A stretch of 64,000 nt of DNA. It comes from Thermomicrobiales bacterium. GTDB lineage: Bacteria > Chloroflexota > Chloroflexia > Thermomicrobiales > UBA6265. Position 1 is the first letter of the stretch, and each line of letters opens with the position of its first letter. A model generated the notes under the pieces. That model was not told the origin of the DNA. It ran no database searches and saw nothing but the letters and a program-made list of their open reading frames with translations. This document shows, piece after piece, positions 20,511 through 62,279 of the stretch. Made by a program: the position numbers and the translations under genes. The stretch lies in assembly GCA_019637585.1 (NCBI GenBank), contig JAHBVL010000010.1, forward strand, positions 1 to 64,000, given 5' to 3'.

Positions 20511-20625
20511 AGCAGTCAGGGGAGAGAGCAGTCAGCAGTCGGCCGTCAGCAGTCAGGACGTGAGTTTGTGGACAACGGTCCGGACCACAAGATTTTCTCT
20601 GCTGACTGCTGACTGCTGACTGCTA
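20511..20625. repeat. Heptamer array locus 1: inverted GCAGTCA arrays
   Basis: Four in-phase heptads (GCAGTCA, GCAGTCG, GCCGTCA, GCAGTCA) occupy 20528-20555, with one more unit near 20511. On the other side, 20601-20621 holds three heptads of the reverse complement (GCTGACT). The arms can pair into a long hairpin. Between them a second small palindrome, TTGTGG at 20566-20571 and CCACAA at 20585-20590, encloses the loop. The array lies in the 316-bp spacer between two divergently transcribed genes. No protein is encoded in this spacer. Confidence 0.8.
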
Positions 20626-33482: not shown

Positions 33483-33540
33483 GCAGTCGGCAGTCAGCAG
33501 TCAGCAGTCGGGACTACGTCACTACGTAGTGCCCGACTGC
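33483..33540. repeat. Heptamer array locus 2 with long hairpin, upstream of parA
   Basis: Four in-phase heptads (GCAGTCG, GCAGTCA, GCAGTCA, GCAGTCG) run from 33483 to 33510. The last one forms the left stem of a hairpin: 33504-33512 pairs with 33532-33540 (9 bp), and 33513-33519 pairs with 33524-33530 (7 bp), with a single bulged G and a 4-base loop. It sits between the divergent parA and the 33653 gene. Confidence 0.8.
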
Positions 33541-34000: not shown

Positions 34001-34090
34001 GCGTTCTTCTTTCGATCCTGCCCCTGGCGGGCGCCAGCGGGACCCTCGTCCGACACAGGGGTTCCGCTGGTGTTGTGTGGGGGGTGTGCG

Positions 34091-34177
34091 GAGTCCGGAG
34101 TCCGGAGTCCGTGGTCCGAAGTCCGAAGCCCGGGATATCCCGGTCGTCCTGACTGCCGACTGCCGACTGCTGACTGC
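34091..34177. repeat. Heptamer array locus 3: two heptad families around a palindrome
   Basis: Six heptads of the GTCCGNN family occupy 34091-34132 (GAGTCCG three times, then TGGTCCG, AAGTCCG, AAGCCCG). A perfect 14-bp palindrome CCGGGATATCCCGG lies at 34130-34143. Four reversed GCAGTCA-type heptads (TGACTGC, CGACTGC twice, TGACTGC) follow at 34150-34177. The spacer (34001-34223) between two same-strand genes encodes no other protein. Confidence 0.8.
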
Positions 34178-39409: not shown

Positions 39410-39510
39410 CCGGACCCCGGACCCCGGACCCCGGACCCCGGACCCCGGACCCCGGACCCCGGACCCCGGACCCCGGACCCCGGACCCCCGGACCCCCGGA
39501 CCCCCGGACC
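39410..39510. repeat. Heptamer array locus 4: GGACCCC repeats
   Basis: Ten exact heptads GGACCCC (GTCCGGG-type on the minus strand) fill 39412-39481, then three octamers with one extra C fill 39482-39505. The array ends directly at the TAG stop of the MFS gene (39510-39512). No gene is visible in 39241-39409 between the terminator and the array. Confidence 0.85.
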
Positions 39511-41150
39511 TAGTCGGCAGCCGATAGCGCCGTCGCGGCGGCGGCTTCTTCCTCGGCCTGGCGTTGTTCGGCCGACTTGATCACGATCTCGTCGTCGATC
39601 ATGAAGTAGGAGAGAACGGCAACGGCCAGCATGGCGACGCCTGAGAAGATGACCGACCGGTCCATCCCCTTCATGAAGGCTTCGGAGCTGACGTGCTGAA
39701 TCGTTGCGATGCGATCGTCGCTGATGCCCAGCTCGGTGGCGATTGCCTCCACGACATGACCGCCATAGTTCATCCCCGACCCGATGACGCCGGCAAGCTG
39801 CGCGACAGAATCCGGCGCGTCGGCCAGCGTGTCTCGCAGCTCATCCGAGTTACGGAAGTGGTCCTGATAGGCCCGGTTGGCCAGCGTCCCCAGGAGCGCG
39901 ACGCCGAAGGCCGTCCCGATTTCCCGCAATGAGCCATTGACCGCCGATGCGACGCCGCTCTTGTCGCTGGGCACGCTGTTGAGCACTGCGGTGGTCATCG
40001 GCGCCCAGATGAAGCTCATCCCCAGACCGATCACCAGAAAAGCCGGCAGGAGATACCAGTAGGACGAGTCGGTGCCGGTCAGGAGAAGCAGGAGCGTTCC
40101 CACTCCTGTCACTGACATACCGAAACTGAGGAGGCGGCGTGGTCCGAGTTTGTTGATCATCGACCCGGAAATTGGCGAGAAGATCATCATCACCACGACC
40201 ATCGGCAGCAAAGCGAGACCAGTCTTGATCGCCGAGAAGCCATGGACGTTCTGCTGATAGAGGGTCAGGAAGAAGGAGACCCCGGTGATCAGGAAGGCGA
40301 TCATGAACGAATCGATGTTCGCGCCCGTGAAGGTGCGGGACCGGAAGAATTCGAGCGGAATCATCGGTCGTTCGGTGTTCGCTTCCACCCAGATGAAGAT
40401 CGGCAGAAGAATCGCAGCAACGGCGAAGGCCAGCAGGATCACGGAGTCGGTCCAGCCCCGCTCGCCGGCTTCGATCAATCCCCAGGTGAGTGAGGCGATG
40501 AATCCCGTGATCAGGATGGTGCCGGGGATATCTGTGGCGACTGTGCCCGACTCATCGCGCGATTCGCGAACAGTGGCCATGGTCACCAGGAAGGCCATGA
40601 TGCCGATCGGGATGTTGATCAGGAAGATCCATTCCCAGGATGCGTACTCGACGATGGCCCCGCCCACGATCGGACCGAGCGCCAGGCTGGAAACCGAGAC
40701 GGCGCTCCAGATGCCGACCGCTTTGCCCCGTTCTTCCGGCGGAAAAGCTGCCGAGATGAGCGAAAGGGAGAGGGGCATGATGAACGCCGCGCCAAGACCC
40801 TGCAGCGCGCGCATGATGATCAGCATTTCCATGCTGTTGGAAAAGGCGGCGATGAACGAGGTGATCGTGAACATCGCCAGACCGGCCAGGAACCAGCTCT
40901 TGCGGCCAAACCTGTCGCCAAGACCACCAGCCGTGATCTGCAATGATGCGAACACCAGCGTATAGGCCGAAACGACCCATTGGAGCTGGGTCGTGGTGGC
41001 GTCGAGTTCGCGCGAAATCGTCGGCAGCGCGATGTTGACGACCAGGTTGTCCAGAAGCGCCATGAAGAGCGCAAAGCAGGCGGCTATCAGCGTAAACCAC
41101 TTCGCGTTGCCATCGGTCACACGACCGTTCAATCCACTTACCTGCGCCAT
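39510..41150 (-). CDS. MFS multidrug exporter, DHA2 (14-helix) family
   Basis: A 546-residue transporter of the EmrB/QacA (DHA2) drug:proton antiporter family, with 14 predicted helices. Motif A is GGLGDRFGRKS after helix 2, and a motif C-like GPIVGGAI lies in helix 5. LLDNLVVNIALPTISREL in helix 1 is a family hallmark. The ATG at 41150 has a strong GGAGGT site. The stop is directly followed by the GTCCGGG heptad array. It sits between surface-protein genes but is monocistronic as far as the sequence shows. Substrates are not predictable. Confidence 0.9.
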   Translation of the reverse strand: MAQVSGLNGRVTDGNAKWFTLIAACFALFMALLDNLVVNIALPTISRELDATTTQLQWVVSAYTLVFASLQITAGGLGDRFGRKSWFLAGLAMFTITSFIAAFSNSMEMLIIMRALQGLGAAFIMPLSLSLISAAFPPEERGKAVGIWSAVSVSSLALGPIVGGAIVEYASWEWIFLINIPIGIMAFLVTMATVRESRDESGTVATDIPGTILITGFIASLTWGLIEAGERGWTDSVILLAFAVAAILLPIFIWVEANTERPMIPLEFFRSRTFTGANIDSFMIAFLITGVSFFLTLYQQNVHGFSAIKTGLALLPMVVVMMIFSPISGSMINKLGPRRLLSFGMSVTGVGTLLLLLTGTDSSYWYLLPAFLVIGLGMSFIWAPMTTAVLNSVPSDKSGVASAVNGSLREIGTAFGVALLGTLANRAYQDHFRNSDELRDTLADAPDSVAQLAGVIGSGMNYGGHVVEAIATELGISDDRIATIQHVSSEAFMKGMDRSVIFSGVAMLAVAVLSYFMIDDEIVIKSAEQRQAEEEAAAATALSAAD

Positions 41151-46123: not shown

Positions 46124-49100
46124 TCAGGTCAGCTCGAAAGAGGCGGTGATGCTGACGTCGTCGACCGTCGTGGCGGTGACGGCATAGCATCCCGGAGACG
46201 AGGGTGTCGTCCAGCGCACCTGGAACTTGTTCGTGGCGAAGGCCAGACCGGAGATCGCCTGCGGCGACCCGAGTGCCGAACCATCCTCACAGCTCACCGG
46301 CGTGTAGGTCAGAGAGGCGACCGATGAGAGCTCGCTCACCACATCCCCATTGAAGGTGACCGCAAATCGTAGCCAGACCTTGGTCCCGCCGGCATAGACG
46401 TTGGGCTGCCCCATCAGCACTGGACTGGTGAAGGTCGAGACTTCGTAGAGACCGGAGTTCCCCCAGAGGGTGAACTCGGCGGTCGCAGAATCACCTCCCG
46501 CCGCGGTGGCGGTGACCAGGAAGCATCCGTCGATCTCCGGCGATACCCAGGTCGTCTCGAACCGGCTGCCGGTGTAGGAGACGCCACCGATGGAATTCGA
46601 GCCACCGATGAGATCACCAGTGCCGCAATCGACCTGTTGCCAGGCAAGCGATTCGACCAACCCCAGATCGGACATCCGATCCTCGTCCCGGTAGATCCTG
46701 AAGCGGAGGGAGATCGATTTGCCTCCCTCCAGGGAGTTGACCGACTCCATCAGCACCGGGCTGAGGAACCCATCGACCGTGATGATGCCCGGGTTGCCGT
46801 AGAGCTCGATTTGCGTCGACATCGCCTGACCGTCGGATGCCTCTGCCCGGAGCCGGAAGCAGGTATCGACTTCCGGTGTGGCCCAGGAGGCGTTGAACCG
46901 GTTCGACGCGAAGGTCAGTCCGGCGAGGAGCGATCCGGCGAGCCCGCCGTCGATTTCGGCGCCCGATGTGCAATCGATCTCGACATAGCTCAAATCGGTG
47001 ATCACACCTGTGTCGCTGACCAGATCACCATTGAGCGTGACCTTGAAGCGGACCGCCAGATTGCGTCCTCCCTCGTGCAGGTGATTGCCCATGACGATCG
47101 GGCTGAGGAAACCTGCGCCGAATTCGTACAACCCCGAGTTGCCCCAGAGCTCATAGTCGGCGGTGATGCTATCCCCCTCCACCTTGGCGATCAGCTGGAA
47201 GCAGCCGTCGATCTCCGGCGTGGTCCAGGTGGTCTGGAAGCGTTTGTTGACGACAACCGGCTCCGGCAGGGCGACGAATTCGCCGATCAGCACCGACGCA
47301 TCGCCACACTCGACCTGCTGATAGCCGAGCGCATCGAGATAGGAGAGATCGGAAACGCGGTCCTCATCCCGATAGATGTAGAAGCGGACATTCACCGGTT
47401 TGCCGCCTTCGAGTGAGTTGACCCCGTCCATCAGAACCGGCGACTGGAAGCCGTCGATAGTGAGAATGCCCGGATTCCCCGTGAGCTCAATGGTCGATTC
47501 GATGAACTGACCGTCGACGGCTTCGGCGTGGAGGAGGTAGCAGGTGTCGACCTCCGGCGTCAGCCACGTCGTCTGGAAGCGATTGCTGGCATAGGTCAGA
47601 CCGGCGATCTGGATGGGAGCGACGCCATCCAGCGCAGAGCCTGTCGAGCAATCGATCTCCTGGACGCGGAGCGTGGAGATGACCGAGGGGTCCGTTTGCA
47701 GGTCGCCGTTGAGCGTCACCTTGAACCGAATGATGAGCGTGTTGCCGCCGATCATTTCGGTGACGCCGCCCGTGACGACTGGCGCGAGGAAGCCGGCGCC
47801 GAACTCGTACCACCCCGAGTTGCCCCAGAGCTCGAAGCTGGCCGTCGCGACCGCTCCCGCTGCTTCGGCTCGCAGCTGGAAGCAGCCGTCGATCTCCGGC
47901 GTAGTCCAGACGGTCTGGAACCGGTTCGAAGCGTAGGCGAGCCCGGCAATGGCCACCGACCCACCGATCGCTTCACCGCTGACGCAGTCAACTTGTGTAG
48001 AGGTGAGCGAGTCGACGATCCCGACGTCGGTGACGCGGTCCTCATCCCGATAGACCTGGAAGCGAACCTGTACCGTTTTTCCTCCTTCGAGCGAGTTCAC
48101 GCCGTCCATCAGCACCGGTGACAGGAAACCGTTGATCGTGTGGATGCCCGGGTTGCCCGTCAGCTCGAACTCGGCCACGGTCATTGCCCCATCGGTCGTC
48201 GTGGCGCTGACGATGAAGCAGCCGTCGATCTCGGGCGTCGTCCAGCGGACCTGGAAGCGGGATCCGGTCCAGGTCAGACCGGGGATGGCGACCGGATCCG
48301 TCGCTGTGGCGCACGGCTGATAGGTCACCGAGGCGATCACGGCCGGATCGGTGAGGGTGACGCCCTCCTGCTTGACAGTGAAGCGGAGGTTGATCGCAGT
48401 TCCGCCCACCATGGAGGTCACACCGCCGGCGACCACGGGGCTCTGGAAGGGGCTGATCACCATCGGCGGAGCGAGGACTTCCGGTTCGGCGATGGCGAAC
48501 GGCGAAAGCGAGCTAGTCCAACCGCAGATGATCCCGTTGACGGTGTCGTTGCCCGACGTGATCGCGATCCAGTCGCCGGCGAAGTGGAGGAGCTGCAATG
48601 CCTCGGGATCGGCAAAGGCAGCTGGCTCATAGGGCAGGCAAATCTCGATCATTCCTTCGAACAGGGCGGTCGTCGAGATGTCGAAGAAGAGCGCGGTGTC
48701 GATCGAGAACCCGGCCGGCAGCGCGGGTGGGTTGGTGTCCACCGTGACCGTTGTCGTTCCGGCCTGCGTCACGTTGTCGAAGGTCAGGGTGATGCCGGTG
48801 CCGGGATCGGTGAACGTGCTGCCGGACCCTGCCGCGGTGTTTGGCGGGCTGAGATAGCCGTCGTGCACCAGGGTCATGGTGACGGGCCGGGCATCGACGA
48901 GGGTCACCGAGGTGGCCGGCGCCTTGGCGAGCCCAGTCGGCGCCGTGCTTTCGATGATCCAGTACTGGCCGATGCCGATGCTCTGGTACGGAAGGAAGAT
49001 GGAGGTCTGACCATCGTTCTGTCCGTCGTCGGCGTCGCAGACAGGTCCCCAGGAGATGCTGCCCGTGCGATAGAGGTGGTAGCAGCCTCCGGGCGCCGGG

Positions 49101-52100
49101 GTGTTTGCTGCGTCTACGCTGTTCACAACCACATAGGGATCGGACAGGGTCTGCGCGGTAATGGTGACGTGTGTCGACACGCCATCGACGACGACGACGG
49201 TTTCGTCGTCGAAGAGAGCATGCCGGGCAAAGGTTTCCATGAATCCCGAAATCCGATACGTGCCCGGCTCGAGATCATAGGACCGTGTAACGCCGTCGAC
49301 CGCGTAACCTGGCGAATCGTATCCATCGCATGGGTCATCCAGATGCGACGTGCCTTGCCATATGCGGAAGCACGCCCCGAGAATCGGATTTCCGAGCTCG
49401 TCCTCATACGTGATAACCAGTGACGCATGCTTTGGTGGGTTGACGATGTCGATCGCCGCAGTCTGACCGAGATCGATGGCAACCGGGCTCCAGTCGTAGT
49501 GGTTGCCAACGCTCGGGCGCCACTGGTAAAGACTCCCTTCCCCTGTTCCCGTGTGGAAGGTGACGATCCCATCAAAGGAACCATCGTCTTCATCGCAGAG
49601 TGATGCTCCATCGGAGACCGAGAGAAAGAAACAGGCGCCGACCGCGGGATTCCCCTGGCCATCTGTCGTGGTGACCACAAGCACGGGCGCCGCGGGCTCG
49701 ATTTCGATGTTGATCTCGAGCGGGGAGGATCCGTCGTGGACAACGAGATACGGAGAGAAGGAAGGAGCCGTGGCACCACGCAGGTGAACGAGCTGCACGC
49801 TGTATTCACCCGGCGGCAAACCCCAGATATCGAGCGGCGTTGCATCGCCGTCCTGTTGCCCACAAACGTAGGCATATGACGGTGACGCGGTCGCCTGCAA
49901 CTGGACACAGAACATAACATCCTGGCTTTGACCCTGATGCGTCGCGGCGATGATGGCCGAGCGCTCGAGGACGAACACTTCTTCGACCAACATCTGACCG
50001 GGCTCGACGATAACGGAGCGCACTTCCGACCATTCCTCGAGGTAGTAGTTGCCCTTGACCGCGATGGTGAACGCTCCCGAGTCTGTGAACTGGGACCAGG
50101 CAAAGGTCCCGTCACTGTCGTAATCCGACTGGCAATAGGAGTTCGGAACGTCGGTCTCCACCCACGAGCCTACGCACGAAGTTCCGACAGGATTCCCCTG
50201 TTCGTCAGTGATGTTGACGACGACCATCACCTGGCGGTTGACATCGACCTGGAAGGGAACATCGATGCTCAGGGTGTCGTTGGCAGGTATTGCGATGTGC
50301 CAGGGGAAGTTCTCCGAGCGGACATAGCCAGCCGGATCCGGATCAGTCGTCAGGTTGACCGGGCCTGACTCGACATTCGCGATGACGCCGGTGCCGTTTT
50401 CGCCGGCGCATCCCCACCGGCTCCATGTGGAGCTCTGAAGATGGAGACAACCTCCCAGACCAGCCAGAGGATTCCCTTCATCGTCGACAAACGTGAACTC
50501 CAGGTTGCCGTAGACGATTGGTTCGGCCAGCACATAGGTACCGCTTCCGTACTCCGCTTCGAGCGTGGCAACCTCGGCGCAGACCATGCCATTCGAGACA
50601 CCGCCGCTGGTGATGTCTGTCCAGACGCCGTCGATACTGACGAAGAACCGGACCGTGTCGGGAAGATCGAACGATCTTGCTGACAGAGGAACGCAGATGG
50701 TGACCGGGCCGGAATACTCGGCAGAGGTGTTGAAGCTCACCCCAAATCCGGTGTCACCGTCGAATCCCTCCGGGGTTGGAGCGTTGCCGCCGCTTGCCCA
50801 GGCATAGGTGTATCCGGCACTGGCGACTTCGCTGAACGTCACGACTGCCTGCACGGTGCCGAGTGTGTTGACGACGACATTCGTCCCGGCCGGGGTGTTC
50901 GGAACCGCGCCCCAGTGCTGCACGGTGATCTCGACCGGGCGCTCGGAGCCGATGTGCAGATCGGTTGTGCGCCTTTCGTACAGCCATTCCGGCGCCCGAG
51001 TCGTGACGAGCGTGTAATCACCATCCAGGATGTTGTTCCACCTGTCGTTGATGATGGTGATACCGTCGTTGGACCCGTCACTATCATCACAGACGGATGG
51101 CCAGTAGCTGCCCGACGGCCCGACGAGCATATAGCACGCTCCGGGTGCCATCGATCCATGCTCGTCTGTGGAGGTCACGATCACGGCCTGATCGAGTTCG
51201 AGGCGGTCCATGATGAAGGTCAGCTCGAGTGGTTCAGACTCGCCGATCGTCACGATGCGTGGCTCGATAACCTGGAAGCCGTAGCTTTCACTCAGATATT
51301 GCGTCAGCTGGTAGTCGCCCGGCGGCAGGCCAAAGAAGGTCGCGACGCCGTCGATTGGATTGACCCCCGCATCGTTCCAGTTCTGGTCGCACGACATGAA
51401 GCCGTCTCCCGGCGGATCGAGCTGTACGAGCTGGTAGCAGGGATGTGGCACGAGGTTGCCCTGGCTGTCGACCGATGTGAAGATCGCGGAGGCGGACATT
51501 GATGTCACAACCCGTTCGACAAGCTGCTCTTCGTCGAGATCGACCGCGAACCAGTCGCCAGAACCCTCGTACCCGTAGGGGATGAACGTCGGGCGCACGT
51601 CAACGACGCCGGACAGACCGTAGAAGTGAGTCAACCCGTCGTTCGCATCGTCCGCGTAGTCGCAGGAGACCGTGGACGGATACATCACCTGGAAACAGAC
51701 GCCGGGAACAGCGGCTCCATCCTGGTCCACCAGCGATACCGTGAGAGCGACAGCGCTCTGAACGAAATCAACGGTGAGATAGCGGGTGTTCCAGTCGCGG
51801 ATGACGGCGGTTGCCGACGTGAAACTCGAGGAGTATCCAGGAGACGTATAGCCCCTGTAGACCTCGTGCGTCCCTTCTGGTATGCCGTAGAAGACAATTC
51901 GCCCGTCGATACCGTCGATACCGTCGATACCGTCGTGGTAGTCGCACGCTTCACGGATATCGCCGGCGATGTCGAAGTAGAAGCAGCTGTCGACTGGTGC
52001 ATAGAGGCCATCGACCGTTGTTTCGACGATCAGAGAAGGCGAGAGGTAGACCGTCTGCTGGACCAGCGTCTGGCCAGGTGAGACCGTGAATGCAACTTCG

Positions 52101-55100
52101 GTTGCCCAACCGTTGTACTGCTGGAAGGGTTTCACGCCGATGGTATGCGTTCCCTCCTCGAAGGGACCAGGAACGAAGACGACGCCTCCACCCGATTGGA
52201 CGGACGTGCACTCCCCAGACCACCCATCAACGGGGCCCGCGCACGCGCCCGGCAAGAGATCTCCGCTCCAGCCGTCGTACACGAAGAGGAGAAGCGATGC
52301 AGCCGCTGGTTCAGGTTCTTCCTGGATGGGGCTGAGCTGGAAGGAGACGCTCCTGAACTGCCCGGCCGAGATGTCGATCTGCTGCCGGGAGTCCGAAACC
52401 AGCTCATAATCCGCCGGTCCATCCACGTGCACAATGCAGTAGCTGCCGGGCGCCAGCTCTTGCCGTACGTAGCCCGACGCATTGGTCGTGACAGTGTCGA
52501 CGACCGTGCCCTCGTCGTCGCATGACGCGTCGATGCTCACGATGTCGAACGTTGCGCCGGGTATCCCGGTCGCGATCGTGATCCCGCCGCTGCCATTCAT
52601 TTCGTGGTAGATCGTGTGCGACACCACATCGCCCGCTTCCACCGCGAGCGATGGGAGCTCCGCGCCTTCAGCCAGCTTCCACAGCATTGGGGGTGAGTAC
52701 GACTCGATCGTCGGGGTGGTTCCGGCCTCGATGTAGAGGTCGATGGTGCTGTCGGACGACGTGGGAATACCGGAGTAGTGATCCTCATCGCAGACAGTGG
52801 TCTGACCGTTGAACACCGGCTCGCTGAGCGTCACGCAGGCGCCGTCAGCATGTCCCGAACCCATTTCGTAATAGTGGAAGAGCGCGCCGTCACCCAGATT
52901 CCGAAGGTTGAGCCGAACCAGCCCATAGATCTCGGGGTCCGGACGCGTCGGGAAGGTGGCAAAGGTGAACGTGACGTTCGCCGTTTCCCCTTCGGTGACC
53001 GTGACCGACTGATGGCGCGCCTCTGGATCGTCGAATCCGGGCGGCGTCCAGTTGAGCCAGACACAATACTCACCCGGAGTTACATCCTCGAAAACATACA
53101 CGCCATCGATGTCCGTGACCCGCACAGCGAGCTGCTGGTCTGGTTGATCGCACGTCGTGGCGGTCGTATAGAGACCGACCTGCGCAGCCTCGACGGGATG
53201 ACCATTTCCGTCCTGCACCAGCGCACGAATCGATCCGGGTATGGTGTTTCCGGGGAGGAGAGCATAGCGAATTTCGACATGCGTGACCGAGCCAGCCACA
53301 ACCTCCGCCGTGACTGGATCGGGAGTGAGATAGCCTGGGGTCGACCCGGTAGGCGTAAACGTGTGCGTTCCCGGCTCGAGGAGATAGACCAGCTCGAAGG
53401 AGCCGTCGAGAGCCCCGTTGAAGTCGTCGCATTCGGGTCCAGAAAGTGATCCGCCGGGGGCAACGCTGTACCGTACACAGGGATTGATGCCGGGGCCTAC
53501 CAGTGGCTCAAGAGTCGCGTCCTGCACTGCGTCAATGACGACGGTGCCGCCCTGCAGTGACTCCAGCACGACGACACTCATCTCACCGACAACATCGAAC
53601 GTGACGAATTCCGAGTAGAAGTAGCCGATCCCGGACCATCCGGAGACTTCATACCGGCCGGGCGGCAATGCGAAAACAGCAACGCCGTTCGGACTGTCGC
53701 TTCCCTCGGCGTTGCCTAGTCCCGATGCCACGAGAGGACCAACGCCCTCTCCCGGGACCTCTTCAAAGATTCGAATGTCGCCAACAGGCACGGGCAGACC
53801 TGATGACTTTTCGACGAGATGGAACGTGACAGGAATGGGATCGTTGCCCCACCAGGTCACGATGGTGACTGTCGTGGTGTCGGTCGCGCAGGTGTTGATC
53901 TCATTGCAGACCCGCAGCGAGACGGTGTACTCGCCGGGCTCGCCGAAGGCTGATGCGCTGACCAGTGGCGACGCTTCGTGCGTGTCGCCGGCATCGTCGA
54001 ATGCACCATTGCCATCGAGGTCCCAGGCAAATGCCAGATAGTCGCCGCCAGCGCCGCTGCCATTCAGCGTGACCTGCTCACCCTCGACGACGGTGTATGG
54101 GCCACCTGCGTCGGCGGTGACGGCAATCTTTGTGTAATCCAGATAGACGTTGTATGTGAGGTCGGAACCGGCATAGGCCGCAGGTTCTGGGTTCACATAC
54201 CCTGGCACAGTACCGATGGGCGAGAAGACCAATGGGCCTGCCGGGAGCGGAAACGCGTGGGCGTTGTAGACGCCGTCGACGGCTCCGTCGAGGCTGTCGC
54301 AGACCGTGGCAATCGTCACGCCTGGCTCAGCGAGCGTGCCAGAGATGATGTCGACGCACGCGTCCCAGATGTTTGGGTAGCGGAGCGGGTTGGAGTCGGC
54401 GGCATCCCGGAAGACAATGACTGGCGCGACGCTGTTGCTGTAGTAGGTCAGGTGAACCGCGTCCATGCCGATCGCGACGTTCAGATAGAACGAAAGGGGC
54501 GTGAGGAGTCCATCGGCTCCGAGGGGCGTAACGTGATAGCGGCCGGCTTCGAGCAGCACCTGGAAGAGACTGGGGTCCTGGGGATCCGCATATGTGGCTC
54601 CCCAGAGTTCCTGCGTGCCGTCCGGACCACCTTCAGGGGCGCTCATCAGAAGGAGACCAACGAAATTCAACGGCTGCCCCGTGCCACCTCTTCCATCAAC
54701 GGTCCTGAACTCGACCAGCACATTGGCCACGAGCGGATTGGTGTCGTTGGCGATCTCCTCGCCGTCGTTGAATCCGTCGCCGTCCGTGTCGGGGTTCAGC
54801 GGGTCGGTGAAATGGAAGCCGCGTTCGTCGCCATCGGACAGACCGTCGCCGTCGGTGTCGGCAAGGAGAGGATTGGTGCCGAGCACATTGACTTCGTACC
54901 CGTCGCCGAGGGTGTCGTCGTCGGTGTCGCCATCAAACGGATCGGTACCGAGGAGGAGCTCCTCTTCGTCGGATAGACCGTCGCCGTCGAGGTCGCCGTC
55001 GGTCTGCATCTCTGCGACGACAAACTTCAGCCAGTTGTAGTCCGGTCCGAGGTTCTCGACGATGCCGCAGACGCTCGTCGCGGTCGGATGGGAGGTCGTC

Positions 55101-57508
55101 AGGTCAGTCCACCGGTAGGGAAAGTCAGACCGCATCAGCAGCCGGACGAGATACTGCGCCGAGAACGTCGCGCCGGAGTAGTCTGCGCAGATCTTGACAG
55201 GCCCGGAATACGTGCTCGTTATGCTGATGATGCGCCAGTGGAGAGAGTTCTCGAACTCAAAGCCGGTTGGCACGTACGGCAATCCGTACGAGTACCGATC
55301 GATCATCTGGGTCCAGGCGGTTCCCGCCGTCGTAACGCTGGTGAAGGTCAGCGTGATGCCATCGCCGGCGTAGATCTCGACCTCATTGCCTGTTGGGACA
55401 ATCGCCTCATGATAGAGCTGATAGGTCGTCACGCCGTTGTGACCATAGGTGGGGATATACGTGTGTGGACCGCCGCTGGTGACTGTGTATCCAACTGGCG
55501 GGACATACTGGACGGCGGTGATTTCTCCCGCCGGAAGGACGACTTCGATGATGCCGTCGCCATCTTCCACCGCGGAAATCATTTCCCCGCTCGGGCCGGT
55601 CATGGAGATCGAGGCGCCCGATCCTTCGCCGAGGTGGTTGCCAAGATAGATCTCGAAGCGGAAGAGGTCGGATGGCGCCGCGACGGAGAAAATGCCGAGA
55701 CTTGTCGTCGTACCGCAGATCACGCCATTGACGGGTGCCCCGTCTGAAATGTCCTCCCAGTTGCCTTCGTTGTAGGCGTAGAGGCGCGCTTCTGCTGGAT
55801 CGCCAAATGGCTGGCCCGACGCATCCGCGCAGACCTCGATGGATCCGGTGTATTCGGCGGTTGTCAACACCTCCCGCAAAAGCTGACTACGAGGCGAGAA
55901 ACCGGGCGGGTGCACATAACCGTACGATGGATATCGCGCCCAGGTCGTTCCCGATGTATCGAGCTGATCGAATGTGAGCGTGAATCCCTGACCGGCGTCG
56001 ATTCGGACGTTCTGGCCGGCGTCAGTGTTCGATTCGCTCAGATAGATGACCGACTGGCTGCCCCCGCCACTGGCAAGTACTGTGCGGGAAGACGGAGATG
56101 GGGAGTTCAGCATCTCGTATCCGGCTGGAGGGGTCACTTCAGTGATGTAGTAGATACCGGGAGGCGGATAGAGGAAAACGTACCCATCGAGGCCAGAGTG
56201 ATCATCGGCATCGCACATTGTGTAGGTTTGTTGGGTCGCGTCATTGATCACCGTCATGCACCCATCGACGGTGTCATCGACAGGCACGACTGGGATGTTT
56301 GTCCAGTTGTCGTAAAACGTGATGCTGACCATTCCCCCGTAACTCTGGGTCAGCATGATGGGCGTGAGGTCTGCCTGCGGCCCGGTGCACAGTTCAGTGT
56401 CCGTGGGGAAGCTGGCAAGGTCCAGCGCTGTCCACCATCCGGGAATCGCTGAATAGAGAAAGATGTTCCCGTACGCAGAGAAATCCACCGGATCGTACTG
56501 AATGCAGAGGGAAACACTGCCGTTGTACGACCCACCGGTCACGGTGAGTGCGAATGCCTGCGTTTCGGAAGGATTCGGGAGCTGGTCCGGTTGGTAACCT
56601 GAATATGAGTTGGGATCGATCGGCGAGGCGGTCAGCATCGCAGTTTCCTCGATCTGATCGAAGGTCACGGTGATGTTCGGGAAGCCGTCCGGAGAGAGTT
56701 GGACGTTCTCGAGCATCGCTGGCGCTGGTTCTTCGCCGTTGGGGGTGTCGTCGCAGAGATCCCCCAGCCCGTCCTGATCGGTATCGAGCTGGTCGGGGTT
56801 GGCGACCGTGGGGCAGTTGTCGTTCGCGTCGTCGATGCCGTCGTCGTCGGAATCGAGCGCCGCCGCAACGCAGTACCCGGTCGCCGGGTCGATTTCGAAG
56901 CCGGCGTTACAGGCCGGAGGTGCACGTGGATCGGTGCCTTGCGCGACTTCGAATCCATCCGAAAACCCGTCGCCGTCGGTGTCCGCGTTTAGCGGATCCG
57001 TGTTGTAGATGTTGACTTCGTCGCCGTCCAGCAGCCCGTCAGCATCATGATCCGGATTCCACGGATCGGTTCCCCAGGTGATGACCTCGGCATAGTCCGA
57101 TAGTCCGTCACTGTCGGAATCGGACTGGAGTGGCAACGTGAACCATGTCCACACCTCGTCGCCGTCGAGGAGTCCATCCCCGTCGCTGTCCGCGATCAAC
57201 GGTGACGTGCCCTGGATGGTCTCATCTCCATCGCCAAGACCATCGTCGTCCGAATCGGGGTCGGTCGGACTTGTTCCGTAGGTATAGACCTCCTCTCCGT
57301 CGAGCAGGCCGTCGCCATCCGAATCGGGGTTGTTGATGTCGGTGCCCCAGACCGCTTCTTCATCGTCATAGAGCCCGTCATTGTCAGAGTCGGTCTGGGC
57401 AGCAGCGTCGTTGACAGGCAACGGCGCAATGGCCGCGAATGGCGTCAGGAGCGACGCGAGCAACGTGACGATGACCAACCACTGCGTGAGTTTCCTGATG
57501 CTCGCCAT
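46124..57508 (-). CDS. Giant secreted multidomain protein, 3794 aa (TSP3, PKD, SpaA-like and tandem C-terminal modules)
   Basis: A 3794-residue exported protein. After a Sec signal (ending near AAAQ), residues 40-262 are thrombospondin type 3 calcium repeats ([18 protein letters not shown]). A second cluster lies about 833-930, and a PKD domain about 1133-1217 ([17 protein letters not shown]). The centre is made of many SpaA/Cna-B-like domains and several beta domains of the DISTT...CGxTxxxSPF type. The last 780 residues are seven tandem modules of two alternating types. It lacks an LPxTG tail. A GGGAGAG ribosome site precedes the ATG. The architecture suggests a Ca-rich, extended surface or matrix adhesin. 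No enzymatic domain was seen. Confidence 0.8.
46127..48470 (-). repeat. Seven tandem protein modules encoded at the 3' end of the giant gene
   Basis: Seven modules of about 108-112 residues (about residues 3013-3794). Each has a start like FLSPVL, a GG-x-RFxV strand, a DC-SG-type middle, then an [17 protein letters not shown] strand block. Types alternate: one with the segment [10 protein letters not shown] and YRDEDR, one with GAGFLxPV and VTLNGDL. The plan resembles the PxKF domain of bacterial surface proteins, but the divergence is large. The DNA itself is also clearly repetitive. Confidence 0.7.
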
Positions 57509-57775: not shown

Positions 57776-61007
<3,232 letters not shown>

Positions 61008-61014
<7 letters not shown>

Positions 61015-61250
61015 TTCATAGTTCATAGTTGATAGTGCATAGAAGTCCGGAGTCCGAAGTCCGGAGTCCGAGGTCCGCAGTCCGAAGTCCGCAGTCCGAG
61101 GTCCGAAGCTCGGGATCGGTGGTCCGGGCTCAAGGACGTCGAGCATCGGACCCTGCCCTACAGCCGGCATAACCTTTCTATGCACTATGAACCATGCACT
61201 ATCAACTATTCACTATCAACCATCAACTATGCACTATGAACTATGCGCTA
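61008..61250. repeat. Heptamer array locus 5: inverted TTCATAG arrays with GTCCGNN array in the loop
   Basis: Five in-phase heptads (TTCATAG three times, TTGATAG, TGCATAG) at 61008-61042 are followed directly by nine heptads of RGTCCGN type at 61044-61106, then degenerate copies to about 61127. On the far side, ten in-phase reversed heptads (consensus CTATNNA) run from 61178 to 61247. The outer arms are inverted and complementary. The plus-strand amidase stop (61012-61014) is inside the left array, and the minus-strand M14 stop (61248-61250) continues the phase of the right array. Confidence 0.85.
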
Positions 61251-62279
61251 CTCCCCGTTCAATACCGCCTCCGCCTCGATCGGTTGTCCCGTGACGAAAA
61301 CGCTATCACCGGCGAGGGTTGGGGTGGTAGCCCGGATGACGGTCAGGATGCCGTCCAGTGGCGCGGTGAAGACCCGGGGGGCGCGCTCGGGGGTGGCGGG
61401 GAACCAGAGACGGCCGACGGGATCACCCTTCTGCACCGCATCGCCCGGTTCGAGCAGGTTCTCCCAGAAGCCGGGTTCGTCGGTATTGACGTAATTCTCG
61501 GGATCCCGGCCGTCGAGAATGATGGCGGGCGCTTTCCCTAGCGATTCGCGGGTTTGCAGCGCTCCCTTGAGCACACCTTCGTGGCGAAGCACGTTGGTGA
61601 GACCGCTCCACGCCAGCTGATGCACGTAAGCCGGCACCCGCCCGCCGCCGCCCAGTTCGGTGGTGATGACCGTTTTGCCCTGGTCCTCGGCTTCGACCGG
61701 CAGGAGCCCGGTGCCGTTGACGTCGATATAAAGGAAGTGATAGTCGCTATTCCAGGCGAGCATCCCCTCCAGCATCGCCTTGCGCTGAGCGGGATTGTCG
61801 ACCACATGCATGTGGGAGCAGGGGAGAAAGAAGAAGGCGTTGCCGCCGGAGTGCATGTCGATGACCACGTCGGCCATGGGGAAAAGGACGCGGGTGAAGT
61901 AGTCGGCGATCTGCTCGGCGGGAGGACCATCCGGCCGGCCGGGAAAAGACCGGTTGAAATTGACCCCTGAGGGCCACAGCCGGGTGAATGCCCAGGCGGC
62001 TTCGACCGAGATGACCGGAATGATGATGATCCGGCCAGTGACATCCGCCGCCTCGATTTCGTCGATCAGGCGGAGTGCCGCAATCTGTCCTTCGTACTCG
62101 TTGCCATGATTGCCGCCCGTGACCAGCACAGTCGGTCCTTCGCCATTGGTGATGCAGGCGATCGGGATCAAGTCGTATGCCCAGCCGCCATTGTTGGAGA
62201 TGCGGGGGTATCGCAACCGGCCGATCTGCTTGCCCGGTGCGGAAAGGTCGATGGACGACGTGACGGATGGTGCGTTCAT
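61248..62279 (-). CDS. M14-family succinylglutamate desuccinylase/aspartoacylase-like deacylase
   Basis: A 343-residue zinc deacylase of the AstE/AspA family (M14), which removes acyl groups from N-acyl amino acids. Zinc ligands are His58 and Glu61 (GNHGNEYEG) and His143 (DMHSGG), and the catalytic Glu208 is in TTELGGGG. A C-terminal beta domain (VFTAPLDGIL) is typical of the longer members such as DoeB, which deacetylate ectoine-derived diaminobutyrate. No ectoine genes are in the window. The start at 62279 has a GGGAG site. The substrate is open. Confidence 0.85.
   Translation of the reverse strand: MNAPSVTSSIDLSAPGKQIGRLRYPRISNNGGWAYDLIPIACITNGEGPTVLVTGGNHGNEYEGQIAALRLIDEIEAADVTGRIIIIPVISVEAAWAFTRLWPSGVNFNRSFPGRPDGPPAEQIADYFTRVLFPMADVVIDMHSGGNAFFFLPCSHMHVVDNPAQRKAMLEGMLAWNSDYHFLYIDVNGTGLLPVEAEDQGKTVITTELGGGGRVPAYVHQLAWSGLTNVLRHEGVLKGALQTRESLGKAPAIILDGRDPENYVNTDEPGFWENLLEPGDAVQKGDPVGRLWFPATPERAPRVFTAPLDGILTVIRATTPTLAGDSVFVTGQPIEAEAVLNGE

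Follow-up and report, generated by a model that had tools for sequence, protein, structure and literature searches.

Stop-anchored, inward-facing heptad arrays between convergent genes of a Thermomicrobiales genome

At positions 61008 to 61250 of the window, by which we mean the whole 64,000-nucleotide stretch of Thermomicrobiales DNA that was analyzed, an amidase gene and an AstE/AspA-type gene converge and are separated by arrays of 7-nt repeats. The features of this locus are as follows; the amidase start is uncertain, with the longest open reading frame (ORF) beginning at 59653.

59695-61014, plus strand: amidase (PF01425), stop TAG at 61012-61014, about 8 of the usual C-terminal residues (RTDWHxRRPP) missing
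61008-61042, plus strand: left outer array of 5 units (TTCATAG three times, TTGATAG, TGCATAG), RGTNNAT family
61044-61106, plus strand: inner array, 9 RGTCCGN units that form a second heptad family
61107-61177: non-repetitive loop of 71 bases
61178-61247, minus strand: right outer array of 10 reversed TTCATAG-type units
61248-62279, minus strand: AstE/AspA-type (M14-like) gene (PF24827, AstE_AspA_cat; succinylglutamate desuccinylase/aspartoacylase type), stop TAG at 61248-61250

On the minus strand, the right-array units read CGCATAG, TTCATAG, TGCATAG, TTGATGG, TTGATAG, TGAATAG, TTGATAG, TGCATGG, TTCATAG, and TGCATAG, and this arm abuts the opposite gene directly. The RGTCCGN family is without an inverted partner at the 61008-61250 locus. 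Direct reading bears out the anatomy given in the first-pass annotation, namely, 5 TTCATAG-type, 9 RGTCCGN, and 10 reversed units, an amidase stop that is the end of the first TTCATAG unit, a minus-strand gene stop in phase with the right array, and TAG in all three frames of both outer arrays. Its label of "M14" for the second gene is acceptable, as PF24827 has the M14-like carboxypeptidase fold.

C-termini were then compared with those of relatives within the family and the order. Almost every amidase homologue ends in ...YQxRTDWHxRRPP, and the window amidase ends in YQGMGS; 26 of 28 homologues run on for 8 or more residues past the array-encoded stop. One or two others, from the same family, have a near-identical end point without an array, so loss of the tail is tolerated. 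The AstE-type gene is 3 residues longer than its orthologue in the relative G002 (81% identical, without an array), which is a single comparison. For three more array-ended genes, the homologues are longer by a median of 5 residues (a glycosyltransferase) or 1 residue (TyrRS), or shorter by 2 (an LLM oxidoreductase). The proposal that homologue C-termini would be shortened or extended at the arrays was thus borne out for the amidase, and elsewhere the shifts are small, some lengthening and some shortening the protein. It had also been reasoned that homologues without arrays ending at the same residues would mark the stops as ancestral; that pattern was not seen for the amidase. Judged from these alignments, the array made the amidase stop and probably that of the AstE/AspA-type gene as well. 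For annotation, this carries a warning: in such genomes, the last residues of a protein may be encoded by repeats. In two relatives, a different heptad array (AGTACGC or CGTCATN type; L194 and L196) lies approximately 70 to 140 nt downstream of the same amidase gene.

A chance origin of the heptad arrays is excluded by match counts and lag controls. Within the window, a two-unit pattern allowing up to 2 mismatches gave 8 matches compared to 0.05 expected, and lag 7 gave 8 arrays, whereas lag 9 gave 3 and each of lags 5, 6, 8, 10, 11, and 13 gave 0 to 1. Genome-wide, a three-unit TTCATAG pattern gave 96 matches and its reversed control 0, and the general RGTNNNN pattern gave 392. The locus at 61008-61250 is one of dozens of heptad-array loci in the genome. 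Further analysis covered 46 array-bearing genome stretches and the window, a chosen sample whose counts are not genome frequencies, in which genes in the stretches were called with a simple codon-usage caller built for the purpose. This set held 138 lag-7 arrays, compared to 0 to 17 at lags 5, 6, and 8 to 11, in six unit families: AGTNNAT, RGTCCGN, AGTCRGC, GGGCAAA, RGTAACT, and GGCAGCR. The orientation of RGTAACT is inherently ambiguous because both strands begin with RGT. Other loci of the window are listed below.

20527-20624: two AGTCAGC arrays in inverted orientation, flanked by divergent genes
33483-33509, plus strand: AGTCAGC array between divergent genes
34077-34177: inverted pair with unlike arms (AGTCCGN plus, AGTCGGC minus) between co-directional genes
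39410-39511, minus strand: array of approximately 14 GGTCCGG-type units that begins at the TAG stop of a gene on that strand, without a detected partner

The last of these arrays has GGGG tracts and is G-quadruplex capable. Elsewhere in the genome, a heptad family of GGGCAAA units (e.g., L262, L265, L288, and L290) has the same polarity and starts at stops (TAG, then GCAAAGGGCAAA). Separately, the window contains one minus-strand ORF of approximately 3,795 residues at 46124-57508.

The placement of the arrays follows a strict rule. None of the 138 arrays is intragenic, and in all 46 intergenic regions that have both orientations, the plus array precedes the minus array. The 70 stop-facing arrays lie a median of 1.5 nt from the stop codon, compared to 57 nt on the loop side (Kolmogorov-Smirnov test against uniform, 4e-27), an asymmetry that rules out arrays merely filling intergenic space; the positions of start-facing arrays fit random placement (p 0.53). 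Of the 237 gene ends in the chosen stretches, 64 lie no more than 15 nt from an array, 30 of them overlapping it. Gene contexts among the 81 array-bearing regions include 20 convergent, 41 co-directional, and 16 divergent arrangements, and many regions carry a single array only. Paired arms belong to one family in 29 of 46 regions (12.9 expected), and in 17 of 46 the outermost arms come from unlike families. Protein ends are rewritten by heptads, with near single-base anchoring at stops across unrelated families and, in the case of TTCATAG, across other phyla as well, and this combination of polarity and anchoring sets a sharp, testable constraint on models of heptad origin and role.

The TTCATAG family was absent from all 100 relatives searched, and the element is therefore not conserved. 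Other heptads occur in many of these relatives, at 0 to more than 1,300 matches per genome, and in two cases, from other genera, a different heptad array sits at the stop of an orthologue (TyrRS in G015, -1; LLM oxidoreductase in G002, +4).

Many bacteria have genomes rich in heptameric repeats, for which no function is generally accepted. By its tandem 7-nt units, stop proximity, and fixed-polarity inverted pairs, the locus belongs with the heptameric intergenic repeats of the Xanthomonas/Nostoc type. In Xanthomonas, GGGAATC arrays are found beside or across stop codons on the sense strand, with 70 to 75 inverted pairs among them (PMC4692102). As with these and the Nostoc GGGGA(C/T)T repeats, the arrays described here are intergenic heptads on the sense strand, 0 to 50 bp from the stop or overlapping it; the Xanthomonas and Nostoc repeats also form inverted pairs in convergent orientation and vary in length between species (PMC4692102). 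They differ in having one G-quadruplex-forming unit per genome (PMC4692102), whereas several families are present here, mostly without a G-tract and with stops in TTCATAG, and in that pairs between divergent genes are not rare here. By direct reading, TTCATAG, AGTCAGC, and most AGTCCGN units lack a GGG run, and GGTCCGG and GGGCAAA arrays have one. With no G-tract per unit, the locus falls in the wider heptad class, outside the GGGAATC/GGGGAYT G-quadruplex subclass. In Xanthomonas, transcript starts or stops are commoner at G-quadruplex-capable arrays (PMC4692102). The TAACTGA direct repeats of Beggiatoaceae, cyanobacteria, and Bacteroidetes offer a second parallel: these heptamers overlap gene ends, and their stops in all three frames have already been noted (PMC4679880). 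However, they lie mostly just before start codons and are hardly ever inverted (PMC4679880), in contrast to the stop-anchored inverted pairs reported here. The locus is a variant of this known kind of bacterial heptad repeat, with Xanthomonas GGGAATC and Beggiatoa TAACTGA as published precedents. No report of heptad repeats in Chloroflexi was found in the literature searched. REP/BIME elements of Escherichia coli are likewise intergenic, hairpin-forming repeats, some of which lie no more than 15 nt from a stop codon and are reported to slow translation there (PMC12306157); REPs are short palindromes, whereas the arms here are heptad arrays with interchangeable units.

The reading that we favor, at about even confidence, is that of dispersed, inward-facing heptad arrays that are anchored on stops, turn over through slippage or copying, and contribute RNA structure at 3' ends. 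Pairs carry RGTNNNN units on the left and the reverse complement on the right, facing inward. Heptad slippage or copying would create the arrays and drive their turnover, and an array that reached a gene end would overwrite that end. TTCATAG could overrun because a stop in every frame would close the frame at once; stop-less units would have to begin after the stop. In line with this, the stop is more often supplied by the array in the TTCATAG family (13 of 27) than in other families (6 of 34, a figure that omits two RGTAACT cases whose unit carries TAA; p 0.014). Array-made stops would then be a side effect that allows TTCATAG to run over gene ends. With less certainty, a like pair transcribed from either gene might form a long hairpin beginning at the stop codon, and this hairpin might act as a 3'-end structure (protecting the message, blocking read-through, or slowing ribosome release in the manner of REPs) and not as a U-tract terminator. 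Predicted folding of the locus gives -107 and -110 kcal/mol for the two strands (z -5.9), which makes plausible the first-pass claim that the inverted pair can fold into a long hairpin. However, messages do not end between divergent genes, and 16 of the 81 array-bearing regions are of this kind, which counts against a 3'-end role; the unlike outer arms in 17 of 46 pairs, the many single arrays, and the absence of the TTCATAG family from relatives weigh against the reading as well, and a hairpin alone leaves the polarity rule unexplained. Within families, arms match their mates no better than non-mates (p 0.12), with no such advantage in the TTCATAG family; fine arm pairing is therefore not visibly selected, and the comparison gives no signal of selection on arm-by-arm pairing.

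The same lack of fine-tuning between mates speaks for the main rival, which we consider unlikely though still worth weighing: a neutral or selfish expansion, in which slippage-prone units spread in non-coding DNA and are tolerated up to the coding boundary, hairpin and stop alike being without function. Such an expansion would fit arrays that avoid genes, unit families that mix and turn over between genera, and C-termini that are both shortened and lengthened; for the Xanthomonas heptads, moreover, the authors found no regulatory role (PMC4692102). It is harder to reconcile with free space that is left unfilled, as arrays are placed at the stop with a median of 57 nt free on the loop side, or with a polarity that has no exception across several unrelated unit families.

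The first-pass annotation had read the arrays as purpose-built all-frame stops combined with a bidirectional intrinsic terminator, and we now regard this as improbable. TAG in three frames of both outer arrays, two array-derived stops, and a strong predicted hairpin all agree with it. Stop-less units (AGTCCGG/A, GGGCAAA, and AGTCAGC), however, begin at stop codons likewise, which rules out an all-frame stop as the general purpose of the arrays, and pairs also occur between divergent genes. From these two observations, the all-frame stop stands as a property of TTCATAG units and fails as their purpose: it may be why TTCATAG overwrites a stop, and it does not account for the existence of the arrays. 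Nor was a U-tract terminator or terminator-like site predicted near 61000-61260 on either strand; a classical intrinsic terminator, with a GC-rich stem and a U-tract, is ruled out at the locus by the missing U-tract.

We hold it similarly improbable that the arrays are a mobile or enzyme-written element, e.g., one like REP/BIMEs that is spread by a RAYT-type Y1 transposase or by some other enzyme that copies arrays in beside stop codons. The arrays resemble REP/BIMEs in their fixed polarity, dispersal, and closeness to stops, and genomes of the class with a strong Y1_Tnp match are heptad-richer (18 of 33 compared to 9 of 68, p 2.5e-5, uncorrected for kinship). Against this, tandem heptads are not REP palindromes, many genomes are heptad-rich without a strong Y1 match (G005, G022, G041, G065, G072, G090, and G099), and several strong-Y1 genomes lack heptads. 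This incomplete association across the class speaks against RAYT as the sole cause. The genome itself has Y1_Tnp genes, and no palindromic unit was seen in it.

TTCATAG arrays also occur in other phyla. Among the matches listed from a scan of species genomes, whose pattern favors TAG-bearing units, exact TTCATAG arrays were mostly from Bacteroidota, with a few from Planctomycetota, Lentisphaeria, and others. Further genes that stop inside TTCATAG arrays, which the first-pass annotation had suggested looking for, were found both in the genome itself and in Bacteroidota. In the other phyla, 30 of 37 listed arrays begin between -23 and +21 nt from the stop of the sense gene, compared to 7 of 31 for opposite-facing stops (p 2e-6). 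Also among the matches listed, the stop codon is TAG in 27 of 36 cases, compared to 144 of 694 other long ORFs (21%; p 2e-11), and it is in phase with the array in 22 of 36. TAG is expected once an array overlaps a gene end; what matters is that such overlap occurs. A broader proposal is that a process shared across several phyla writes or keeps interchangeable heptads in one polarity exactly at stops, which would make them a general stop-anchored 3'-end class and not random microsatellites; we put this forward as a doubtful, speculative extension. In the Bacteroidota arrays (L069 to L148), the reverse strand holds ATG (ATGAACT), and the leftward longest ORFs start inside arrays; these starts are perhaps a longest-ORF artifact or perhaps start codons made by the array.
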